Source: a virus. From it: a DNA stretch of 36,835 nt. Both the position numbers and the translations under genes were made by a program. Below the pieces are notes generated by a model. It searched no databases. It worked only from the letters and a program-made list of their open reading frames with translations, and had not been told where the DNA came from. Of this stretch, positions 2,827 through 33,573 are shown in pieces. How positions within the stretch are numbered: position 1 is the stretch's first letter; each line of letters starts with the position of its first letter. The DNA lies in IMG/VR virus record IMGVR_UViG_3300045922_000457, positions 1 to 36,835 of that record; one strand, 5' to 3'.

Positions 2827-3066
2827 TTTAAACCTCGTAGGGCCAAAAAAATCTGCCCTTGCACCGTTTGATACCTCATCCGTAAGGCATTGGAGACAAA
2901 CAAGCACAAAGGCAGAACTCATTTGGAAGGTCTAGGAACCCCATAAGGGGCACACATGACTTAATGTAAGTTTTACATTCTATCTCCCAAAATGACACTA
3001 TATAATTTTTACCATTTATTTTTTATATATTACAATTCTCACAATGATGATTCATAATCACCAGCC
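2827..3066. promoter_or_regulatory. Divergent early/late control region
   Basis: About 240 bp separates the late unit (minus) from the first early gene (plus). On the plus strand, TATAAT at 3001-3006 is a good -10, with only a weak -35 upstream; its start point would be near 3013. The block 3000-3035 is very AT-rich and has TAATAT/TATAAA on the minus strand, fitting a late promoter there. Two perfect palindromes flank the -10: 2963-2979 (AATGTAA, GTT, TTACATT) and 3048-3060 (TGATT, CAT, AATCA). A small CCCC-ATAA-GGGG hairpin lies at 2939-2950. No regulator can be assigned. Confidence 0.5.
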
Positions 3067-3390
3067 ATGAATAACAACCCAAAATACAAATCTTACACGC
3101 CGAATTGTAATGCTTGTTCAGATGTCGGGGTAATCTTGGTCGATGCCGAGTCTCCAGATACCGCTCCATACGCGTTTAAATGCTCGTGCGCGATGGGAAT
3201 GATTAAGTATAGTGCTTTACCCTCTGTTGGACAAATCTATCGTAGAATCAAAAAAGAAGACGGTACGTGGGCAAATCAAGCAAAAGACGTCAATCCAAGC
3301 TACAAACGATCTACCGCCCCCTTCGACAACACCCAAGCCATCGTTCGTAAACCGTCTTTCGTCATCAATGATGAAGATTTAATTTTTTAA
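3067..3390 (+). CDS. Putative zinc-ribbon protein (107 aa)
   Basis: This is the first early gene. The N-terminal half has a four-cysteine pattern, Cys14-x2-Cys17 and Cys39-x-Cys41, spaced like a zinc ribbon. The C-terminal half is basic and polar with no obvious fold. No clear Shine-Dalgarno sequence precedes ATG 3067. The gene is separated from the other early genes by about 1.4 kb, so it probably forms its own transcript from the TATAAT at 3001, ending at the plus-strand terminator-like hairpin at 3450-3528. Function unknown; nucleic-acid binding is a guess from the ribbon. Confidence 0.6.
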   Translation: MNNNPKYKSYTPNCNACSDVGVILVDAESPDTAPYAFKCSCAMGMIKYSALPSVGQIYRRIKKEDGTWANQAKDVNPSYKRSTAPFDNTQAIVRKPSFVINDEDLIF

Positions 3391-3398
3391 ATTTCTCT

Positions 3399-3442
3399 AA
3401 AAAAAAGAATACCCATCTTGAGTTTTATCCCGAGATGGGTAT
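3399..3442 (-). terminator. Strong intrinsic terminator for a minus-strand transcript
   Basis: Read on the minus strand, a perfect 10-bp stem (ATACCCATCT with AGATGGGTAT, loop of 14 nt) is followed after TC by eight T residues. No minus-strand gene lies just upstream, so it either ends a minus-strand RNA coming from 3450-4200 or blocks antisense transcription into the divergent promoter. Confidence 0.65.
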
Positions 3443-3449
3443 GATATGG

Positions 3450-3528
3450 ACTAACAGGATTGCTAGACCCAGAATAAGGCTTCGATGCCTGAGATTCAAT
3501 AGCAATCTTGTTGGTTGCTTATTTTTTT
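3450..3528 (+). terminator. Terminator-like long hairpin for the first early gene
   Basis: ACTAACAGGATTGCT (3450-3464) pairs with AGCAATCTTGTTGGT (3501-3515): 15 pairs, two of them G-U if read as plus-strand RNA. A small inner hairpin AGGC/GCCT lies at 3477-3490. TGCTTA and then seven T residues (3522-3528) follow. The G-U pairs and T tract both favour plus-strand use. The 36-nt loop is long for a terminator, so it may instead be part of the structured RNA that follows. Confidence 0.5.
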
Positions 3529-3539
3529 GGGGTACTCCT

Positions 3540-3804
3540 TGTGGTGCCCACAGTGCGGTGAGATGACTGAAATCGAACGTAGCCGCATGGGATCGAAAGA
3601 TCCTCCTGGCTTGTGCCAGTAGCATAGCTTGAAGAGTAAGGTCCTCGTTCAAGCACACAGGGGCCAGACCGATAGCCGACCGACCGACGTGGTCAGAAAG
3701 TTATCGAGTAAGTATTCGGGACGGGAGTCGTTAAATCGACGGTAATAGTGCCATGACACCTACAGAGAGGTAACTCTGGCACCCCCAAGGGGATCCAGAC
3801 CACC
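3540..3804 (+). ncRNA. Candidate structured non-coding RNA, hairpin-dense
   Basis: Hairpins follow one another almost without gaps. They are 3540-3552 (TGTGG/CCACA), 3553-3588 (GTGCGG/CCGCAT), 3589-3604 (GGGATC, GAAA tetraloop, GATCCT), 3606-3619 (CTGGC/GCCAG), 3627-3654 (GCTTGAA and GAG paired with CTC and TTCAAGC), 3727-3740 (GTCG/CGAC) and 3748-3782 (GTGCCA/TGGCAC with inner ACCT/AGGT). GTGGTC 3689-3694 can pair with GACCAC 3798-3803 and enclose the last two. A GNRA loop and several G-U pairs favour the plus strand; the minus-strand terminator at 3399-3442 argues the other way. It resembles no RNA I can name. Comparison with large phage RNAs such as GOLLD and ROOL is warranted. Confidence 0.45.
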
Positions 3805-4046
3805 CACCCGTAAGTCCTTACAAAAGACCATACGCACCTGCTGGAAGGACGAACATAAAAATAAAATCACACACTAAGTAGTCTTTTTTAGCCATCCCTC
3901 CGCCTCCCTCCCTCCGTGGTCAGGATTACCAGTACTAGGCTGTGTGGTAGCTTGATGGCGGCTTTAATGGAGGTTTTGAATTAGGCTATACTTTAAGTAT
4001 TTGGCTTGAATTCTGTCCTTTGGTTGAATTTAAAAAAAAGAACTTT
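3805..4046. other. Non-coding stretch with polypyrimidine tract and possible long-range helix
   Basis: No gene is supported here. There is a T6 run at 3883-3888, a pyrimidine tract of CCCTCC units at about 3893-3916, and a near-palindrome ATACTT-T-AAGTAT around 3988-4000. GGCTATACTTTA near 3985 is almost complementary to TAAAGTATAACC near 4175, which could close a ~190-nt RNA domain; the one mismatch would be G-U on the minus strand. TATACT at 3987-3992 could alternatively be a plus-strand -10 with a poor -35. Confidence 0.35.
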
Positions 4047-4150
4047 GTAGAAAGCACAGATTGCGAACGATGGCTAGATCATTCGAAAGAAAGACAGCCC
4101 ACGTGCGATATTGGCTACGTAGAAAGATAATACTGCGTACGATGGCTAGA
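4047..4150. repeat. Pair of 32-nt imperfect direct repeats inside a possible RNA domain
   Basis: Copies at 4047-4078 and 4119-4150 share GTAGAAAG, then six variable bases, YTGCG, one base, and ACGATGGCTAGA. They start exactly 72 nt apart. ATCATTC (4078-4084), beginning at the last base of the first copy, can pair with GAATGAT (4156-4162) just after the second, with an extra G-U pair in plus-strand sense. Conserved blocks separated by a variable block look like repeated RNA structural modules or protein-binding sites. Confidence 0.55.
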
Positions 4151-4366
4151 ACTATGAATGATGTCCCACTTACCTAAAGTATAACCAAACACTTTGCACA
4201 ATGTGACCAATGCTAAAACCCATAGGCATGGATCGGGGGGGATATTCCCCCACTCTCACACCCCGCGGGCACGCATGGCAAGGTGGTGCCCCCCTGGGGG
4301 GGTTGATGGTGTGCTTAGGGGTTAGGTTTGTGGGGTTGGATTTTGGGAGGGGGGGTGCTTTTTTGG

Positions 4367-4629
4367 TTACGCATGGGGTTTTGGGGCTTGGGATTCCTTG
4401 GGGGAAGTGAGTGGGTTGTTACGCATGGGGTTTAGGCTTGTGGGTGTTTGGGCTAGTTTGGTTAAGGCTTGGGGGGTTAGGCGCTTGGGTTGGGTTCGGG
4501 GCTTGGCTTCGGGGCTTGGCTTAGGGGTTTTGGCTCTGTGTTACGCTGTGTGTTAGTAAGAGGGTACACTATCCTCAGGCGCTGGGGTTTACCCATGGGG
4601 GTTATGTAAGTGGGTTACCCATTGGGGTT
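4367..4629 (+). repeat. Four iteron-like repeats, TTAC(G/C)CAT(G/T)GGG(G)GTT
   Basis: Copies lie at 4367-4380 (TTACGCATGGGGTT), 4419-4432 (same), 4589-4603 (TTACCCATGGGGGTT) and 4615-4629 (TTACCCATTGGGGTT), all in one orientation. Their start spacings are 52, 170 and 26 bp. Same-orientation short repeats in a non-coding region beside replication genes are typical of initiator-binding iterons, but no initiator protein is recognised in the window. Confidence 0.5.
4495..4520 (+). repeat. 13-bp perfect tandem duplication
   Basis: TTCGGGGCTTGGC occurs twice in immediate tandem (4495-4507 and 4508-4520), followed by TTAGGGG. It lies within the G-rich block and may reflect replication slippage or a repeated binding site. 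Confidence 0.7.
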
Positions 4630-4797
4630 AGTACGAGGGCTACCCCGTTCGTTACACTCACTCTGATGGCGGCTGTGGGTTGGGTTTAGCTTATGGGTGT
4701 TGTGTGTAGTGTCAAGTAAAAAGTGTGGTTATTGGGTTTTTTGGGGGCTTAATTGGAACGCGGCGCATTGGTTGGAATGGGTTTTTTAAAAAAATGC

Positions 4798-4826
4798 TTG
4801 CATTGGTTGTGTAAATGGTGTAATGT
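4798..4826 (+). promoter_or_regulatory. Early promoter with twin GTGTAA motif (copy 1)
   Basis: TTGCAT (4798-4803) lies 17 bp from TAATGT (4821-4826). Between and overlapping these are GTGTAAATG and GTGTAATG (4809-4825), a direct repeat with a 9-nt period. The same twin motif precedes the 89-aa gene and the clamp-like gene. It is placed just before the ribosome site of the first pentapeptide-repeat gene. Confidence 0.5.
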
Positions 4827-4848
4827 TGTAACTGAAAAGGAGGCAAAA

Positions 4849-5544
4849 ATGGCTATACAGTTAAAAAACAAAAATGGTGACGTAATCTACTCTGCTGACG
4901 CCGATAACATAGAGAATGCAATCGTCATGGCGTTGAAAGATGAAGTCGATCTTTCTGGTATTGATTTAAGGGGTCAAAAAATCTACAACCTTCACCTGAA
5001 AAATGTTGACCTAAGTGGTGTAGATTTTTCTGGTGCCTTGCTTGCTGGATGCGAACTATTTAATTCTAATCTGGATGATTCAAACTTCAATAATGCTATA
5101 CTTAGGGGTTGTTCGTTTAATCGCTGCATCATTAGAAGATGCTCTTTTGTTGAATCCGAACTAATAGGATCAGACTTTTATGACTCTTATTTTGTGGGGT
5201 CACGTTTTGAAAATTCTTCCATTGAACGCTGTAGCGTTGAGTTTTCTAATCTAGAAGAGTGTGACATGTTCTTAGTTGACTTAAGTCATTCAAGTTTTTA
5301 CTCGAGTAATTTGTCTTACTCTTCAATGAGAGAAACATACGGAGAAATGGTTAATTTCAACGACGCGAATCTAACCAATTGTGATTTTACGGAGTGTAAT
5401 TTTCTAGATGCTTCTTTTGATGGAGCCAAACTAGAGGGGGCAAACTTTAAGGACGCTGAGATTTATTGCGATGAAATTGATCTTTTAAGTCAAAAAAACA
5501 AACTTAAAAACGTAAAAAACAGCGAATCAATTATTTTTGGTTGA
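4849..5544 (+). CDS. Pentapeptide-repeat protein 1 (231 aa)
   Basis: Residues ~33-205 are made of five-residue repeats of the A(D/N)LXX type, for example DLSGVDFSGALLAGC and the region around NFNNAILRGC, predicting a right-handed beta-helix. Pentapeptide-repeat proteins such as Qnr and MfpA mimic DNA and bind gyrase. A DNA-mimic or anti-defence role is inferred here because the ArdC-like gene follows two genes later and a paralogue lies beyond it. The short N-terminal region (QLKNKNGDVIYSA) is shared with that paralogue. The start is ATG 4849 with AAGGAGG 5 nt upstream; the frame extends to 4753 without a good ribosome site. The protein is unusually Cys-rich and acidic in places. Confidence 0.85.
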   Translation: MAIQLKNKNGDVIYSADADNIENAIVMALKDEVDLSGIDLRGQKIYNLHLKNVDLSGVDFSGALLAGCELFNSNLDDSNFNNAILRGCSFNRCIIRRCSFVESELIGSDFYDSYFVGSRFENSSIERCSVEFSNLEECDMFLVDLSHSSFYSSNLSYSSMRETYGEMVNFNDANLTNCDFTECNFLDASFDGAKLEGANFKDAEIYCDEIDLLSQKNKLKNVKNSESIIFG

Positions 5545-6810: not shown

Positions 6811-7524
6811 ATGAAAACTTTTGAATTGAGAAAAAAAGACGGTGAAATTCTCTTCCAAAAAGAAGCCTATAGTTTTGAGGATGCTTTATTTAACGCTTCA
6901 TTCTATGAAAAGGTGAATATTTCCGGAGCCGATTTAAGAAACAAAACACTTCGTTGCTTGAAGTTAAAAAACAATGACTTATCTGAAATTGACTTTTCAA
7001 ATTCGACGCTTGAAAACTGTTATTTTGATGGTTCTATTTTGAAAAAATGTAACTTTTCGAATGCAATAATCAGAAATTGCAATTTCAGTAATGCAAAGTT
7101 GTTAGAATGCAATTTCGATGGTTGCAAAATCTTTGGAACAGAATTCAAAGATTCAGAGCTTAAAAAAGCTAGTATCAATTACGCAATAGTTTACTCTTGC
7201 GATTTTGAAAATTCCAAAACGACAGAATCTATTATATCCTTCTCTGATCTATCTTTGTGTAATTTTGTAAGATCATATCTTTTAAAAACAAACATAAATG
7301 AATGCCATGGATTTAAGGTTTATTTTGAAAATGCCGACTTGTCAGAAAGTACTTTTAAAAAGTGCGTGTTCCACAAGCCTTCATTTAGAATGGCAAAAAT
7401 AAAAAATGCTAGTTTTGATGATATTAGAATCGATCTTTCTAGTGAGGTAGGAATTAATCACGCTAGAGCGTTCTTTTTAAACAATTCGAGATTTTGTGAA
7501 TATATGGTTTTCACAAAAGACTAA
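6811..7524 (+). CDS. Pentapeptide-repeat protein 2 (237 aa)
   Basis: This is a paralogue of the protein at 4849. It shares the N-terminal K-x-K-x-G-(D/E)-I-x pattern (MKTFELRKKDGEILFQ), the same spacing to the first repeat and about 30 pentapeptide repeats (NISGADLRNK, CNFSNAIIRNCNFSNAKLLE), predicting a beta-helix of about the same length. The two copies flank the ArdC-like gene, so one could have arisen by local duplication, followed by strong divergence. The ATG follows AAAAGGAG by 8 nt. DNA mimicry against gyrase or restriction enzymes is inference from the family and the context. Confidence 0.85.
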   Translation: MKTFELRKKDGEILFQKEAYSFEDALFNASFYEKVNISGADLRNKTLRCLKLKNNDLSEIDFSNSTLENCYFDGSILKKCNFSNAIIRNCNFSNAKLLECNFDGCKIFGTEFKDSELKKASINYAIVYSCDFENSKTTESIISFSDLSLCNFVRSYLLKTNINECHGFKVYFENADLSESTFKKCVFHKPSFRMAKIKNASFDDIRIDLSSEVGINHARAFFLNNSRFCEYMVFTKD

Positions 7525-28085: not shown

Positions 28086-29039
28086 TTATAAGGATCCAAA
28101 CTTAACGATTCGAGCTTCACCTGGATTTGCGGTATCCCAAACGCTGCCAAACTCGGCAATTCCATACCAAGCAACAGCTTTTTGACGACCAAAATCCCGT
28201 GGAATCTCGGCTCGAAGTTCTGGATCGAGAACAACCGCCATAGCTACAGAGTCATCACCGAAAAACACGGCCTCACCTGTTACACCGCCAGCGCCAACAG
28301 AGTTGCTTAGAGCACCGAAGTTGTTTGATTCAATGAATCGGATTCCTTCGACTCGACCGATCTCTCCGTTGTATTTTGCTTCTGGGTTGGTGTATTTGTG
28401 CCATGTTTCCCAATTAGGATCGCTCTTGATACCACGACAAACTTTAGTGGAAGCAATACAAATGTATTCATCACCATCGTTTATCCCTGGAATCTTAAGA
28501 GTTCCATACATGTAATCTCGAATTTCTTCGACATGATACATTTTCATGTTTGACAAAGCCGTTGCAGCATATGATCCGTTAGTGGAGATATTGATTGAAG
28601 CTGCTCCGGTAGCAACAGCAGCAATCTTCACATCGCTCGACTTGTACGCAGCAGCAGCTGCATTGTCCATAACAAGACTCATTTGTTTGATTAGGTTTTT
28701 TTGTACAATGTTTTCCACATCAAACTTAGATAGATCCTCTGCTAGAGAAGTGAATGGAACAGCGCGCCCCCACTCAGAAACAGTGATCGACTTGGTTGAT
28801 AAAGTTAACTGATCTTCTGGGATGTTCTGTCCTTCAGTGATTCTTCCATTGCCTGGGACATCTAAGTTTGAAACCCTAGTAATGGTAATGGATTCGCCTT
28901 TTTTGCGTCCATAACCACTCTCTGGTCGTACGAATTGCATGAACTTTGTTCTAGCAATCGCAGCATAACGAAGTTGCTCTGACATAGCATGGTTTTTATA
29001 GACACCGTTAGGTGCATCAAAACTCCATGTAAAATTCAT
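28086..29039 (-). CDS. Major capsid protein, N4-gp56-type HK97 fold
   Basis: The 317-aa sequence has an N-terminal arm, then KGESITITRVSNLD (residues ~48-61). A helix-rich centre follows (LVMDNAAAAAYKSSDV), and later a YICIASTKVCRGIKSDPNWE region and a GAVFFGDDSVAMAVV-like strand (written GEAVFFGDDSVAMAVV in this protein). This pattern is typical of N4-gp56 family capsids, whose subunits build the icosahedral head. It follows the scaffold gene directly, with AAGGAGG before ATG 29039. The capsid-type identification is fairly secure by order and sequence style. Confidence 0.8.
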   Translation of the reverse strand: MNFTWSFDAPNGVYKNHAMSEQLRYAAIARTKFMQFVRPESGYGRKKGESITITRVSNLDVPGNGRITEGQNIPEDQLTLSTKSITVSEWGRAVPFTSLAEDLSKFDVENIVQKNLIKQMSLVMDNAAAAAYKSSDVKIAAVATGAASINISTNGSYAATALSNMKMYHVEEIRDYMYGTLKIPGINDGDEYICIASTKVCRGIKSDPNWETWHKYTNPEAKYNGEIGRVEGIRFIESNNFGALSNSVGAGGVTGEAVFFGDDSVAMAVVLDPELRAEIPRDFGRQKAVAWYGIAEFGSVWDTANPGEARIVKFGSL

Positions 29040-29880: not shown

Positions 29881-30144
29881 TTATCCTTTCATGTTTTTAG
29901 ATTCAATAACCCTAGATCGCATAATGGCAGTGTCTAATGCTCTAACCTGAGACCTTAACTCAGAAAGAACATGACAATTAGCCAAATACAACGAGGGATC
30001 TGTACAACCTGTTTTGACAAGATTGTCTATCTTTATCAATACCATCTCAATCTTCTCTAAGAGAAAACTCTTAAAAAACTCAGCGGCAAGCTCTGCCTGT
30101 CTCCCCTTTTCAACTACTCTTAAAACTTTATCATAATCACTCAT
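29881..30144 (-). CDS. Small helical protein between portal and scaffold (87 aa)
   Basis: It is joined to the portal gene by an ATGA overlap. The product is helical and amphipathic (VVEKGRQAELAAEFFKSFLL, LSELRSQVRALDTAIMRSR). Small helical proteins at this position are common in podoviruses but have no uniform role. It may be a portal-associated or head-assembly helper. No family recognised. Confidence 0.65.
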   Translation of the reverse strand: MSDYDKVLRVVEKGRQAELAAEFFKSFLLEKIEMVLIKIDNLVKTGCTDPSLYLANCHVLSELRSQVRALDTAIMRSRVIESKNMKG

Positions 30145-32072
30145 TGCGATAACCTCGGTCCATTAGGTTGTGGTCTACCCATAGGTCCTCCACCCATAGA
30201 TCCAGTGTTCTCTGATCCTGCTTGTGGAATATTCCCCAGATCAGTTCCAGGACCACCAACGTTTCCACCAGCATTCATCATTTGATGCATTTTAATTGCT
30301 TGCATCATTCTTTCTTGGGCAGCTTGCTGCTCCTCTGGATCCATCTTCAGTCTTTCGGTGTTTACATCAAGAGACCTTAAAAACTCCTCCATCAGCCTTT
30401 GCATAGAGTATTTTGACATAAACTCCTGCATCAGGAGTGGACTTGAAGCTATTGTTTGTAAGAACGTCATATACTTTCTAAAGTCCTTCATTTTGGCTAA
30501 AGTCTTGCTCATTCCATAAGCCTTGAACACGTTTCCTCCAAACATATTTGAGAAAACTTGCTCACTGCTCATGTTTGAAATCTCAATTGCTCTTTGTTCT
30601 CCGAAGAGATCCTTTAACTCCTTAAAGTCAATCTCTGAAATGTGCTGAAGAATCATGTTCCACGATTTTTCAAGAACCTTTTCAACAAACTGATTCTCCA
30701 AAACCTTTGCGATTCCACCAAATACAGAACTAATTGTTTGATTTGCCTCAACAACTTCTGTTGCCTTAACAGACCTCGCTGGAAGGTTGCCCATTCGAAG
30801 ATCGTTAGTCATTGCTGCTATGTTAAATTCAGCATTTTGCAGCTGAAACATCGCAAGACTTTCTTGGGTAACACTTGAAGTATCTATTCTCTCCAAAACC
30901 TTCATTCCAGGAGGACAATTTGCGTTTACCGCTACACTTTGACCAGGATAGAAACCGTTATCAGCCTGAGAATCGTCCTCCATATAGTCTGGTCGATATT
31001 GCTTGATACCATAAACACCCATCATTGCTCCATCAACCATCAGGTTCCACAACTCGTTCTGAGTGATATTGTTTGCACTAGCCGCGTCCATCATCGCCGT
31101 ATGCCAAACAGACCATGGAACCCTAATAATTGGAGCTATAACGTACGGAGTTTCTCCGGTCCAAATAGGGTTTGGCTTTGGCTTCGCGATCAAGTGTTGA
31201 TCGTTGGCAATAGTCCAAGTTACATTCTCAAATAAAACTTCTCCAGTAATGGTATCAACGATTGTTCCCCAATACTCTTGAATCTTAACCTTTTGACGAG
31301 CCTGAGATGGAATGTTTTGGTTTGTTTCCCTAGCCTTACTTACCTTGAAGTTCCAATCCTCGCTATATTGTTTGGAAATCTTCTCTACTTCTTTTATGTC
31401 ATAGATAGGATTTTTACCTTTTGCTAATCTCTCGACCTCAAAATAGTCAAGATAAAGCTCCTCCATCATGTATAGACCCTTACCTGATGGATCAAGGTAA
31501 AAGTTTTCTGGTTGAACCAATGAAAACTTCAATGTCCATGGTTCTCTAAATCCACGCTTAATTTTATTTTTTAAAGTACCATCATTATTTATATCTTGCT
31601 CAAAAATAAAGAATGGTTTTTTACAATAGTCCCCATAAACCTTTAAAATTATTACAGAAGATAAAAGACCAGTCTTTATGCAATCACCAATTAAGGACAC
31701 AAAGTCGTTCATCTCAAGAAATCGGTCAGTGATTTTCTTAACCTCTTCCTTTTTTATTAAGACCTGATTTTCGTTTACTCCTGGAGCGTATTCAGCCTTC
31801 CACCAATCTGATACATCCATAATTCCCTGTTGGAAAAACTGAGTAATCTGTTCAACAGCCATTCGCTGTTTTGGAAGGAAATCCCTGCTTTGGCCTTCAC
31901 GCTTGTGAGACCAATCCTGCCTCATGTGATAAACATCCCAGTTGCGAGAGTTTAAAATATCCCTATTTCTTCTCGCTTGCTTGGCTTCGTTTTTGTAAAC
32001 ACGACTTATCTCAAGTATTCTTGAAACTTCATCTTTTTCAACATCACTAGAATTAACGTCCTTCAGATCCAT
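30141..32072 (-). CDS. Portal protein
   Basis: The 643-aa product has the long charged helical start and Trp/Tyr-rich segments of podoviral portals (RNWDVYHMRQDWSHKR; WKAEYAPGVNENQ). A large clip/wing region follows (IIRVPWSVWHTAMMDAASAN), and the C-terminal crown is Met/Gln-rich and Gly-rich. The portal ring is the DNA gate to which terminase docks. I start at ATG 32072, overlapping terminase by 20 bp; a TTG at 32087 is the alternative. Order terminase-portal-scaffold-capsid supports the call strongly. Confidence 0.85.
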   Translation of the reverse strand: MDLKDVNSSDVEKDEVSRILEISRVYKNEAKQARRNRDILNSRNWDVYHMRQDWSHKREGQSRDFLPKQRMAVEQITQFFQQGIMDVSDWWKAEYAPGVNENQVLIKKEEVKKITDRFLEMNDFVSLIGDCIKTGLLSSVIILKVYGDYCKKPFFIFEQDINNDGTLKNKIKRGFREPWTLKFSLVQPENFYLDPSGKGLYMMEELYLDYFEVERLAKGKNPIYDIKEVEKISKQYSEDWNFKVSKARETNQNIPSQARQKVKIQEYWGTIVDTITGEVLFENVTWTIANDQHLIAKPKPNPIWTGETPYVIAPIIRVPWSVWHTAMMDAASANNITQNELWNLMVDGAMMGVYGIKQYRPDYMEDDSQADNGFYPGQSVAVNANCPPGMKVLERIDTSSVTQESLAMFQLQNAEFNIAAMTNDLRMGNLPARSVKATEVVEANQTISSVFGGIAKVLENQFVEKVLEKSWNMILQHISEIDFKELKDLFGEQRAIEISNMSSEQVFSNMFGGNVFKAYGMSKTLAKMKDFRKYMTFLQTIASSPLLMQEFMSKYSMQRLMEEFLRSLDVNTERLKMDPEEQQAAQERMMQAIKMHQMMNAGGNVGGPGTDLGNIPQAGSENTGSMGGGPMGRPQPNGPRLSQ

Positions 32073-33573
32073 ATATCTCACCACCAAATCTATAACCTGG
32101 AGATTTTACTCCAACCCTAGGCTTCTTGTTGATAAACCTCATAAATCCAGATACCCCATATTGTAACGCATCATGGATATTAGACCAAAAGTTCTTTTCT
32201 GGCCTAATCTTATTCGGCTCTTTTTCAAAGTATTTCTCAGGGTAATGATATTTTCCATCAAAACCCTTTACAAGCTCTGGGCAACCTGGCTCGCTCACCA
32301 AAAAACATGGCCTACCATGCTTCATAGTTGTTAGCAGCGTCTCAACAGACTGAACTCTCTCGTTGAAACCATTTGCTCCTGGTTGAACCTTAAAAAACTT
32401 AGCAAACACAGTAACATAGGTTCGCTCATCGACATCCCTTCTGTTAAACGCTGTTGGATCAATGAACGTAATGAAATCCTCTTTTAAATTGCACCAATCC
32501 CTGAAGTCTTTTCTCAAATTAGTTATTACATACTCGCAAAAACGCTCTGCACCCATGTTTTCCTGTATATACTCTTTTAAACAAACCCATCTTCCTTCTT
32601 GGTATTGAGATACTAATGCTGCAGGATATAAACCTTGGTCTATAGATAGAATTAATGGAAGGCCAAGATGTGGGTGTATAATCTCGCTGGTCGCATGAAC
32701 CTTTTTAGACCAATCAGGATATACTGGCTTGCCAATCTTTGTTTCCCAGCTAATCTCATACTCTTGCATCCACTGGTGATAAGGCATTGATGCCTTCTTC
32801 TGAGCCAAAACCTCATCGGTATATTTGCTCTTGTCAGCACTATAATGAATTTGTACAACAACAAACCCGTTCTTCTCATTTCTCCAAATCTCTACACCAT
32901 CAATAGGCCTGTAAATCTTTGGAGGAGTCTTGGGAACCTCTCCATCTACGCAATCGAATACAATGTCATGAAAAAACGATGGTGCAGCAGAGCTAATCGC
33001 AGTCAAGCACCCATGCGCTCCAAGTGTGGGTATAGCAGCAGAATATGTTGCTTGAGCATTGTCCCAAAACGCCATTTCGTCACAAAGAAGCCTTGAAAAG
33101 GTGTATGATCGCGCCTGATCTGCCCCTTCTGGCAGGGCAACAATTCTTGATCCAAAATCAACATTCCTTACTTCACAATAAACAAATTCTAGCTTTGGTC
33201 TAAGTTCTTTTGGCCAAACATCTTCTGGGACATGGTCATGAATGAATTTCATCCTCTTCAAAAGCTCATTTGCAACGTCCTCTTTCTTGGACATACAGCC
33301 TATGAGTCGGCCCTTATTAAACCACACATCCCATAAATGAAGTGACACCATAAGCCACGATGCCATCATCTGACGAGACTTTGGGATCGCAACAAGTCGC
33401 TCCCTAGTCCATATCTTGCACATTATTTGAAGGTATTTTTTTTCTGTTGGGAACGGTTTTATTGGGTTATTAGCGTCGTTTTCGTCAAGCGTTCTTACAC
33501 AATCCTTGATCCACTCCCAGGGATCATTGGCCCATCTTATAAGGTCTTTTGCGTATTCTTGCGTGGCTTTCAT
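32053..33573 (-). CDS. terL: Terminase large subunit
   Basis: The 506-aa product has an ATPase with a terminase-type Walker A variant AIPKSRQMMAS (residues 62-72, Lys65) and Walker B RLLCDEMAFW (Asp165, Glu166). The coupling motif region SSAAPSFFHD follows. The nuclease domain begins at LILSIDQGLYPAALV, continues with FITFIDPTAFNRRD and ends near WSNIHDALQYGV, giving the acidic metal ligands. It pumps DNA into the prohead and cuts the concatemer. The ATG at 33573 has only a weak purine stretch upstream; a hairpin (33585-33620) stands before it and may tune expression. Confidence 0.92.
   Translation of the reverse strand: MKATQEYAKDLIRWANDPWEWIKDCVRTLDENDANNPIKPFPTEKKYLQIMCKIWTRERLVAIPKSRQMMASWLMVSLHLWDVWFNKGRLIGCMSKKEDVANELLKRMKFIHDHVPEDVWPKELRPKLEFVYCEVRNVDFGSRIVALPEGADQARSYTFSRLLCDEMAFWDNAQATYSAAIPTLGAHGCLTAISSAAPSFFHDIVFDCVDGEVPKTPPKIYRPIDGVEIWRNEKNGFVVVQIHYSADKSKYTDEVLAQKKASMPYHQWMQEYEISWETKIGKPVYPDWSKKVHATSEIIHPHLGLPLILSIDQGLYPAALVSQYQEGRWVCLKEYIQENMGAERFCEYVITNLRKDFRDWCNLKEDFITFIDPTAFNRRDVDERTYVTVFAKFFKVQPGANGFNERVQSVETLLTTMKHGRPCFLVSEPGCPELVKGFDGKYHYPEKYFEKEPNKIRPEKNFWSNIHDALQYGVSGFMRFINKKPRVGVKSPGYRFGGEIYGSEGR

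Follow-up and report, generated by a model that had tools for sequence, protein, structure and literature searches.

A G+C-rich hairpin cluster between the late and early operons of a podovirus-like phage, and a candidate structured RNA in the phage’s terminase leader

A cluster of G+C-rich hairpins lies in the IMG/VR virus record IMGVR_UViG_3300045922_000457 (36,835 bases, analyzed whole and hereafter called the window), and the reading we prefer, tentatively, is that it is a lineage-specific, non-coding segment of the phage control region which, if it acts as RNA, would most likely do so as a leftward structured transcript. The cluster folds modestly more strongly than shuffled sequence, and a plainer hairpin ~600 nt away, in the leader of the terminase operon, is the better structured-RNA candidate, as judged by comparison with the nearest relative.

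The window represents a podovirus-like phage with a genomic G+C content of 39%. Late genes occupy the minus strand, among them those for the terminase large subunit (TerL, 32053–33573), a portal-like head-tail adaptor (30141–32087), the major head protein (MCP, 28086–29039), and a terS-like ORF (2203–2922), and the plus strand carries the early genes between about 4849 and 16164, which encode an ArdC-like anti-restriction protein, RusA, a phage exonuclease, and a Sak4-like protein. Pentapeptide-repeat proteins (4849–5544 and 6811–7524, plus strand) lie on either side of the ArdC-like protein at the start of this early operon. The late and early blocks are separated by a plus-strand ORF of 107 aa (3067–3390) and then a 1.46-kb non-coding stretch (3391–4848), inside which the hairpin cluster sits.

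An earlier note on this DNA had described a dense run of adjacent hairpins at 3540–3804, and the stems that it listed are indeed present within ~10 nt of the places given, although their excess over chance is modest. The first hairpin begins ~10 nt before 3540, with GGGTACTCCTTGTGGTGCCC at 3530–3549, and is followed by a closing stem GTGCGG/CCGCAT (3553–3588), a six-pair stem with one G-U pair and a GAAA loop in the plus reading (3589–3604; the loop is UUUC on the minus strand), and hairpins at 3606–3619 (CTGGCttgtGCCAG), 3627–3654 (GCTTGAA..TTCAAGC), and 3727–3740 (GTCGttaaatCGAC). Two further stems, GTGCC/GGCAC (3748–3782) and GTGGTC/GACCAC (3689/3798), give way to local alternatives in the minimum-energy fold. 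We treat the cluster in slightly extended form (3528–3870, strand not settled), as a feature marked by its fold z-scores, its base composition, and its want of a homolog. That the region is non-coding, as had also been claimed, is borne out: the longest stop-free frames span 67–91 codons and match no protein family, and neither ORFs nor family matches reveal a recognizable protein on either strand, on which grounds a hidden protein was rejected. G+C content reaches 54% in the cluster, compared with 39% for the genome, and 265-nt windows outside 3200–4900 never exceed 50.6%; the cluster belongs to the genome’s only G+C-rich island. Two related period-4 runs, GCCGACCGACCGACGTGGTCAG and GCCTCCCTCCCTCCGTGGTCAG, occur at 3675–3696 and 3902–3923, 227 bases apart.

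Folding was evaluated against dinucleotide-preserving shuffles (400 for hairpin counts and local-span energy). The cluster forms 10 hairpins with stems of at least 4 bp, compared with 6.0 in shuffles (5 of 400 shuffles as high), and its local-span energy corresponds to z-scores of −2.6 on the plus strand (3 of 400 shuffles) and −3.1 on the minus strand (0 of 400); on each strand, both the hairpin number and the energy of local folding are uncommon among shuffles, at roughly the 1% level. Over 3528–3870, local-span fold z-scores are −2.7 (plus) and −2.5 (minus). At 265 nt, global z-scores are −2.0 (plus) and −3.3 (minus), and the range over all analyses of that length is −2.0 to −2.6 for the plus strand and −2.4 to −3.3 for the minus strand. 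Relative to the rest of the genome, the same signal is ordinary to mildly unusual: genome-wide, 28 of 222 windows (13%) have global z-scores of −2 or lower, and the local plus-strand value of −2.6 is reached by 8 of 184 windows (4%). Most single hairpins of the cluster are not significant individually. Single-sequence folding of this kind is no evidence of functional structure (Rivas 2021, PMC8250186), and since several per cent of this genome’s windows show comparable folding, the description of the hairpin run as a hallmark of a structured RNA was overstated.

Searches of IMG/VR with TerL and portal returned five related records (G001–G005). G001 (40.9 kb; 82% identity in TerL, 79% in portal, and 91% in MCP) is the only one that contains the corresponding intergenic region in full; G002 and G003 stop short, and G005 and the near-match G004 are more distant (portal 46%), with G005 carrying coding sequence after terS instead. 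Set against G001 and G002, the window (ends at 1/36835) seems to be an almost complete genome in circular arrangement, with several hundred bases absent at the junction; in the G001 contig, the ends overlap by ~100 bases with a few mismatches. The G001 intergenic region is not alignable to the cluster (scores of 19 and 24 on the two strands, where shuffles reach 29 at best) and lacks excess structure where the cluster would lie. Single-sequence covariance models of one plus-strand and one minus-strand domain likewise matched nothing in G001 and recovered the window itself alone, their one extra match being a 31-nt chance hit at an ArdC locus (E 0.12). Blastn of the region against phages and plasmids returned nothing, as did exact core patterns of the cluster in IMG/VR viral contigs; TerL and MCP searches of genome contigs found no relatives, and ArdC relatives share neither other early genes nor the hairpin region with the window. 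Rfam gave no match to the window at the gathering score and none to the region at relaxed thresholds, with only noise well under gathering below threshold (CRISPR-DR35, twister-P1, and the like). Because blastn, Rfam, exact patterns, and the G001 comparison all gave nothing, the cluster is an orphan within the databases searched, which may lack records nearly identical to the window, and is probably lineage-specific. Between its terS leader and intergenic region, G001 has ORFs of 258 and 299 aa, the latter with a Walker A-like GAPTGAGKT recognized by eye; tblastn found no counterpart of either in the window, and the replication genes may therefore differ between the two phages.

The same comparison gave a clear result for the leader of the terS/late (terminase) operon, upstream of terS (window 2932–2852, minus strand; G001 40743–40825, or L006:743–825, plus strand). 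A 13-nt unpaired motif (CCUUCCAAAUGAG), identical in the window and G001, precedes a single long hairpin, in which 12 of 27 pairs have changed on both sides and are still paired. In total, 90.7% of cells are paired, compared with 72% in shuffles and 47–53% with partners slid, counts that come from two sequences with the structure derived from one and hence lean towards that structure; independent minimum-energy folds of the two leaders are nearly identical. With this covariation-type test strongly positive, the leader shows the evolutionary signature of a working structure, and the comparison can evidently detect a conserved RNA at the distance that separates the window from G001, where it detected none in the cluster. 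No Rfam match was found for the leader. A possible late-operon attenuator is suggested by the U7 run that follows the hairpin in the window (the U-run is weaker in G001). For the terS-like ORF, the probable start is ATG 2826 rather than 2922, because similarity with G001 sets in at residue 33 and the longer reading frame extends into the conserved leader hairpin.

Two oriented terminator-like structures lie to the left of the cluster. One, found by a hairpin plus U-run scan, is a hairpin with a 12-pair stem (3443–3398, minus strand; z −6.6) followed by a U8 run on the minus strand only, and would therefore stop leftward transcription leaving the cluster. The other, a long hairpin with a U-rich run (3448–3527, plus strand), is oriented rightward and would terminate transcription of the 107-aa ORF ahead of the cluster. 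Among the ORFs there is no convincing minus-strand gene from the 3443–3398 terminator up to ~16.1 kb, where the early operon ends, and a minus-facing terminator that lacks a leftward gene is suggestive of a non-coding transcript running leftward. Both structures, together with the terS leader (2932–2852, minus strand), resemble phage leader attenuators and intrinsic terminators in joining a hairpin to a U-run; unlike in such systems, the window’s terminator-like structures flank the cluster, and scans found none inside 3540–3804. Over 3528–3870, the minus strand forms 107 pairs (17 G-U) versus 89 (8 G-U) on the plus strand, and over 571 nt (3400–3970, both terminators included) the z-scores are −4.8 for the plus strand versus −3.2 for the minus strand. 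The earlier plus-strand reading, with which G-U pairs had been called consistent, is not favored, as folding of the minus strand is at least as good, with more pairs (G-U pairs included) and a better-placed terminator; if a transcript exists, the minus strand is somewhat favored. Promoter matches around the cluster are at chance level, with a weak leftward match at 4207–4178 and none found after the plus-strand terminator at 3527.

We propose that the cluster belongs to a control region flanked by the leftward late operon (from terS on) and the early operon, which runs rightward, and that, if it acts as RNA, it would most likely be part of a structured non-coding transcript of ~0.5–0.8 kb read leftward on the minus strand. 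Transcription would start in the dyad and repeat zone around 3990–4200 and stop at the 3443–3398 terminator, short of the 107-aa gene; the hairpins would make the transcript long-lived, and its role could lie in an early/late switch or in a replication origin in the same region. The candidate start zone (3980–4190) is operator-like, with inverted TACTTTA(A/G)GTA dyads around a 32-nt direct repeat that is 81% identical, and exact matches to TATACTTTANGTA occur in the genome only at its two dyad places. Such a leftward RNA is consistent with the fold excess on both strands, the G+C island, the lack of coding signal, the terminator orientations, the minus-strand pairs and z-scores, and the match at 4207–4178; against it stand the lack of similar sequence or structure in G001, the strength of folding genome-wide, the chance level of the promoter matches, and the lower plus-strand z-score over 571 nt.

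A rather unlikely alternative is that the cluster functions as DNA, being part of an origin or a single-strand initiation site whose dyads would form cruciforms or single-stranded hairpins bound by replication or regulatory proteins. Both strands are alike in structure, as expected of DNA dyads, and the cluster adjoins repeats, dyads, a strand-composition switch, and a G/T-rich tract. The local switch to G/T-rich composition falls at 4230–4310 and is found likewise in G001, which also has a long non-coding stretch here; at the switch lies a G-run/C-run element (4230–4301) weakly common to G001 (around 37.84 kb there; alignment score of 29 versus a best of 28 in 50 shuffles), and the G/T-rich non-coding tract (4280–4780, plus strand) contains five G-quadruplex-type motifs. 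Because the switch occurs at the shared element in both phages, a candidate replication origin in the 4230–4780 region is plausible. The skew change is, however, confounded with gene orientation, no exact DnaA box is found within 2900–4900 (not every phage origin needs DnaA boxes), and the shared element and switch lie 400–700 bp to the right of the cluster, outside it. Besides T4 oriF and oriG, ColE1 RNA II is a further example of an R-loop replication origin. The region resembles the T4 origins in its non-coding character, its strand asymmetry, and its G/T-rich tract beside a structured part (PMC3016281), but no A+T-rich unwinding element or known initiator site was identified here.

We also consider it somewhat improbable that the cluster has no function and is G+C-rich non-coding DNA, perhaps recently acquired, that folds by composition or chance and from which the best stems had been chosen. 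The absence of the cluster from its nearest relative fits this explanation, as do the frequency of comparable global z-scores across the genome, the insignificance of most single hairpins, and the chance-level promoters. It accounts poorly for local-span energies and hairpin counts that beat nearly all shuffles on both strands, and for a G+C island that is unique in the genome. Highly improbable is the plus-strand structured RNA first proposed, whether as an independent RNA or as the 5′ portion of a rightward one that reaches the G/T-rich tract and forms a replication-priming R-loop in it: the GNRA (GAAA) loop, the plus-strand z-score over 3400–3970, and the G-rich transcript that the 4280–4780 tract would yield point to it, but the plus-strand terminator ends directly before the cluster with no promoter found after it, folding of the cluster itself is at least as good on the minus strand, and the cluster is not conserved in G001.

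Comparison with known RNA classes gave no assignment. GOLLD and ROOL, to which the cluster had been likened, often occur near tRNA islands, an association that is not strictly defining (PMC12286853). Like them, the cluster is non-coding, has many adjacent helices, and resides in a phage; it differs in its size (0.27–0.55 kb, whereas one ROOL RNA has 659 nt and many GOLLD RNAs exceed 800 nt). The likeness fails on the lack of an Rfam covariance model match, by which both identities were rejected, and on the lack of any tRNA in the 36.8-kb window. A tRNA or tmRNA was rejected as well (none found), as was an intron of group I or II, for which Rfam gave no match and no neighboring gene looked interrupted. 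It is very doubtful that the cluster forms the core of a large structured phage RNA of a new class, ~0.5–0.8 kb long, probably on the minus strand, and made from the early/late control region in a rare lineage of podovirus-like phages, and the claim of a new large phage RNA is as such unsupported.

Were the cluster a real RNA, it would add a new member to the large structured RNAs of phages, from a lineage of which hardly any relatives are known. The case shows that a striking run of hairpins proves little without homologs, while a plainer terminase-leader hairpin in the same genome passes a covariation test that the cluster cannot be given. The terS leader is the better target for work on structure and function in this phage.
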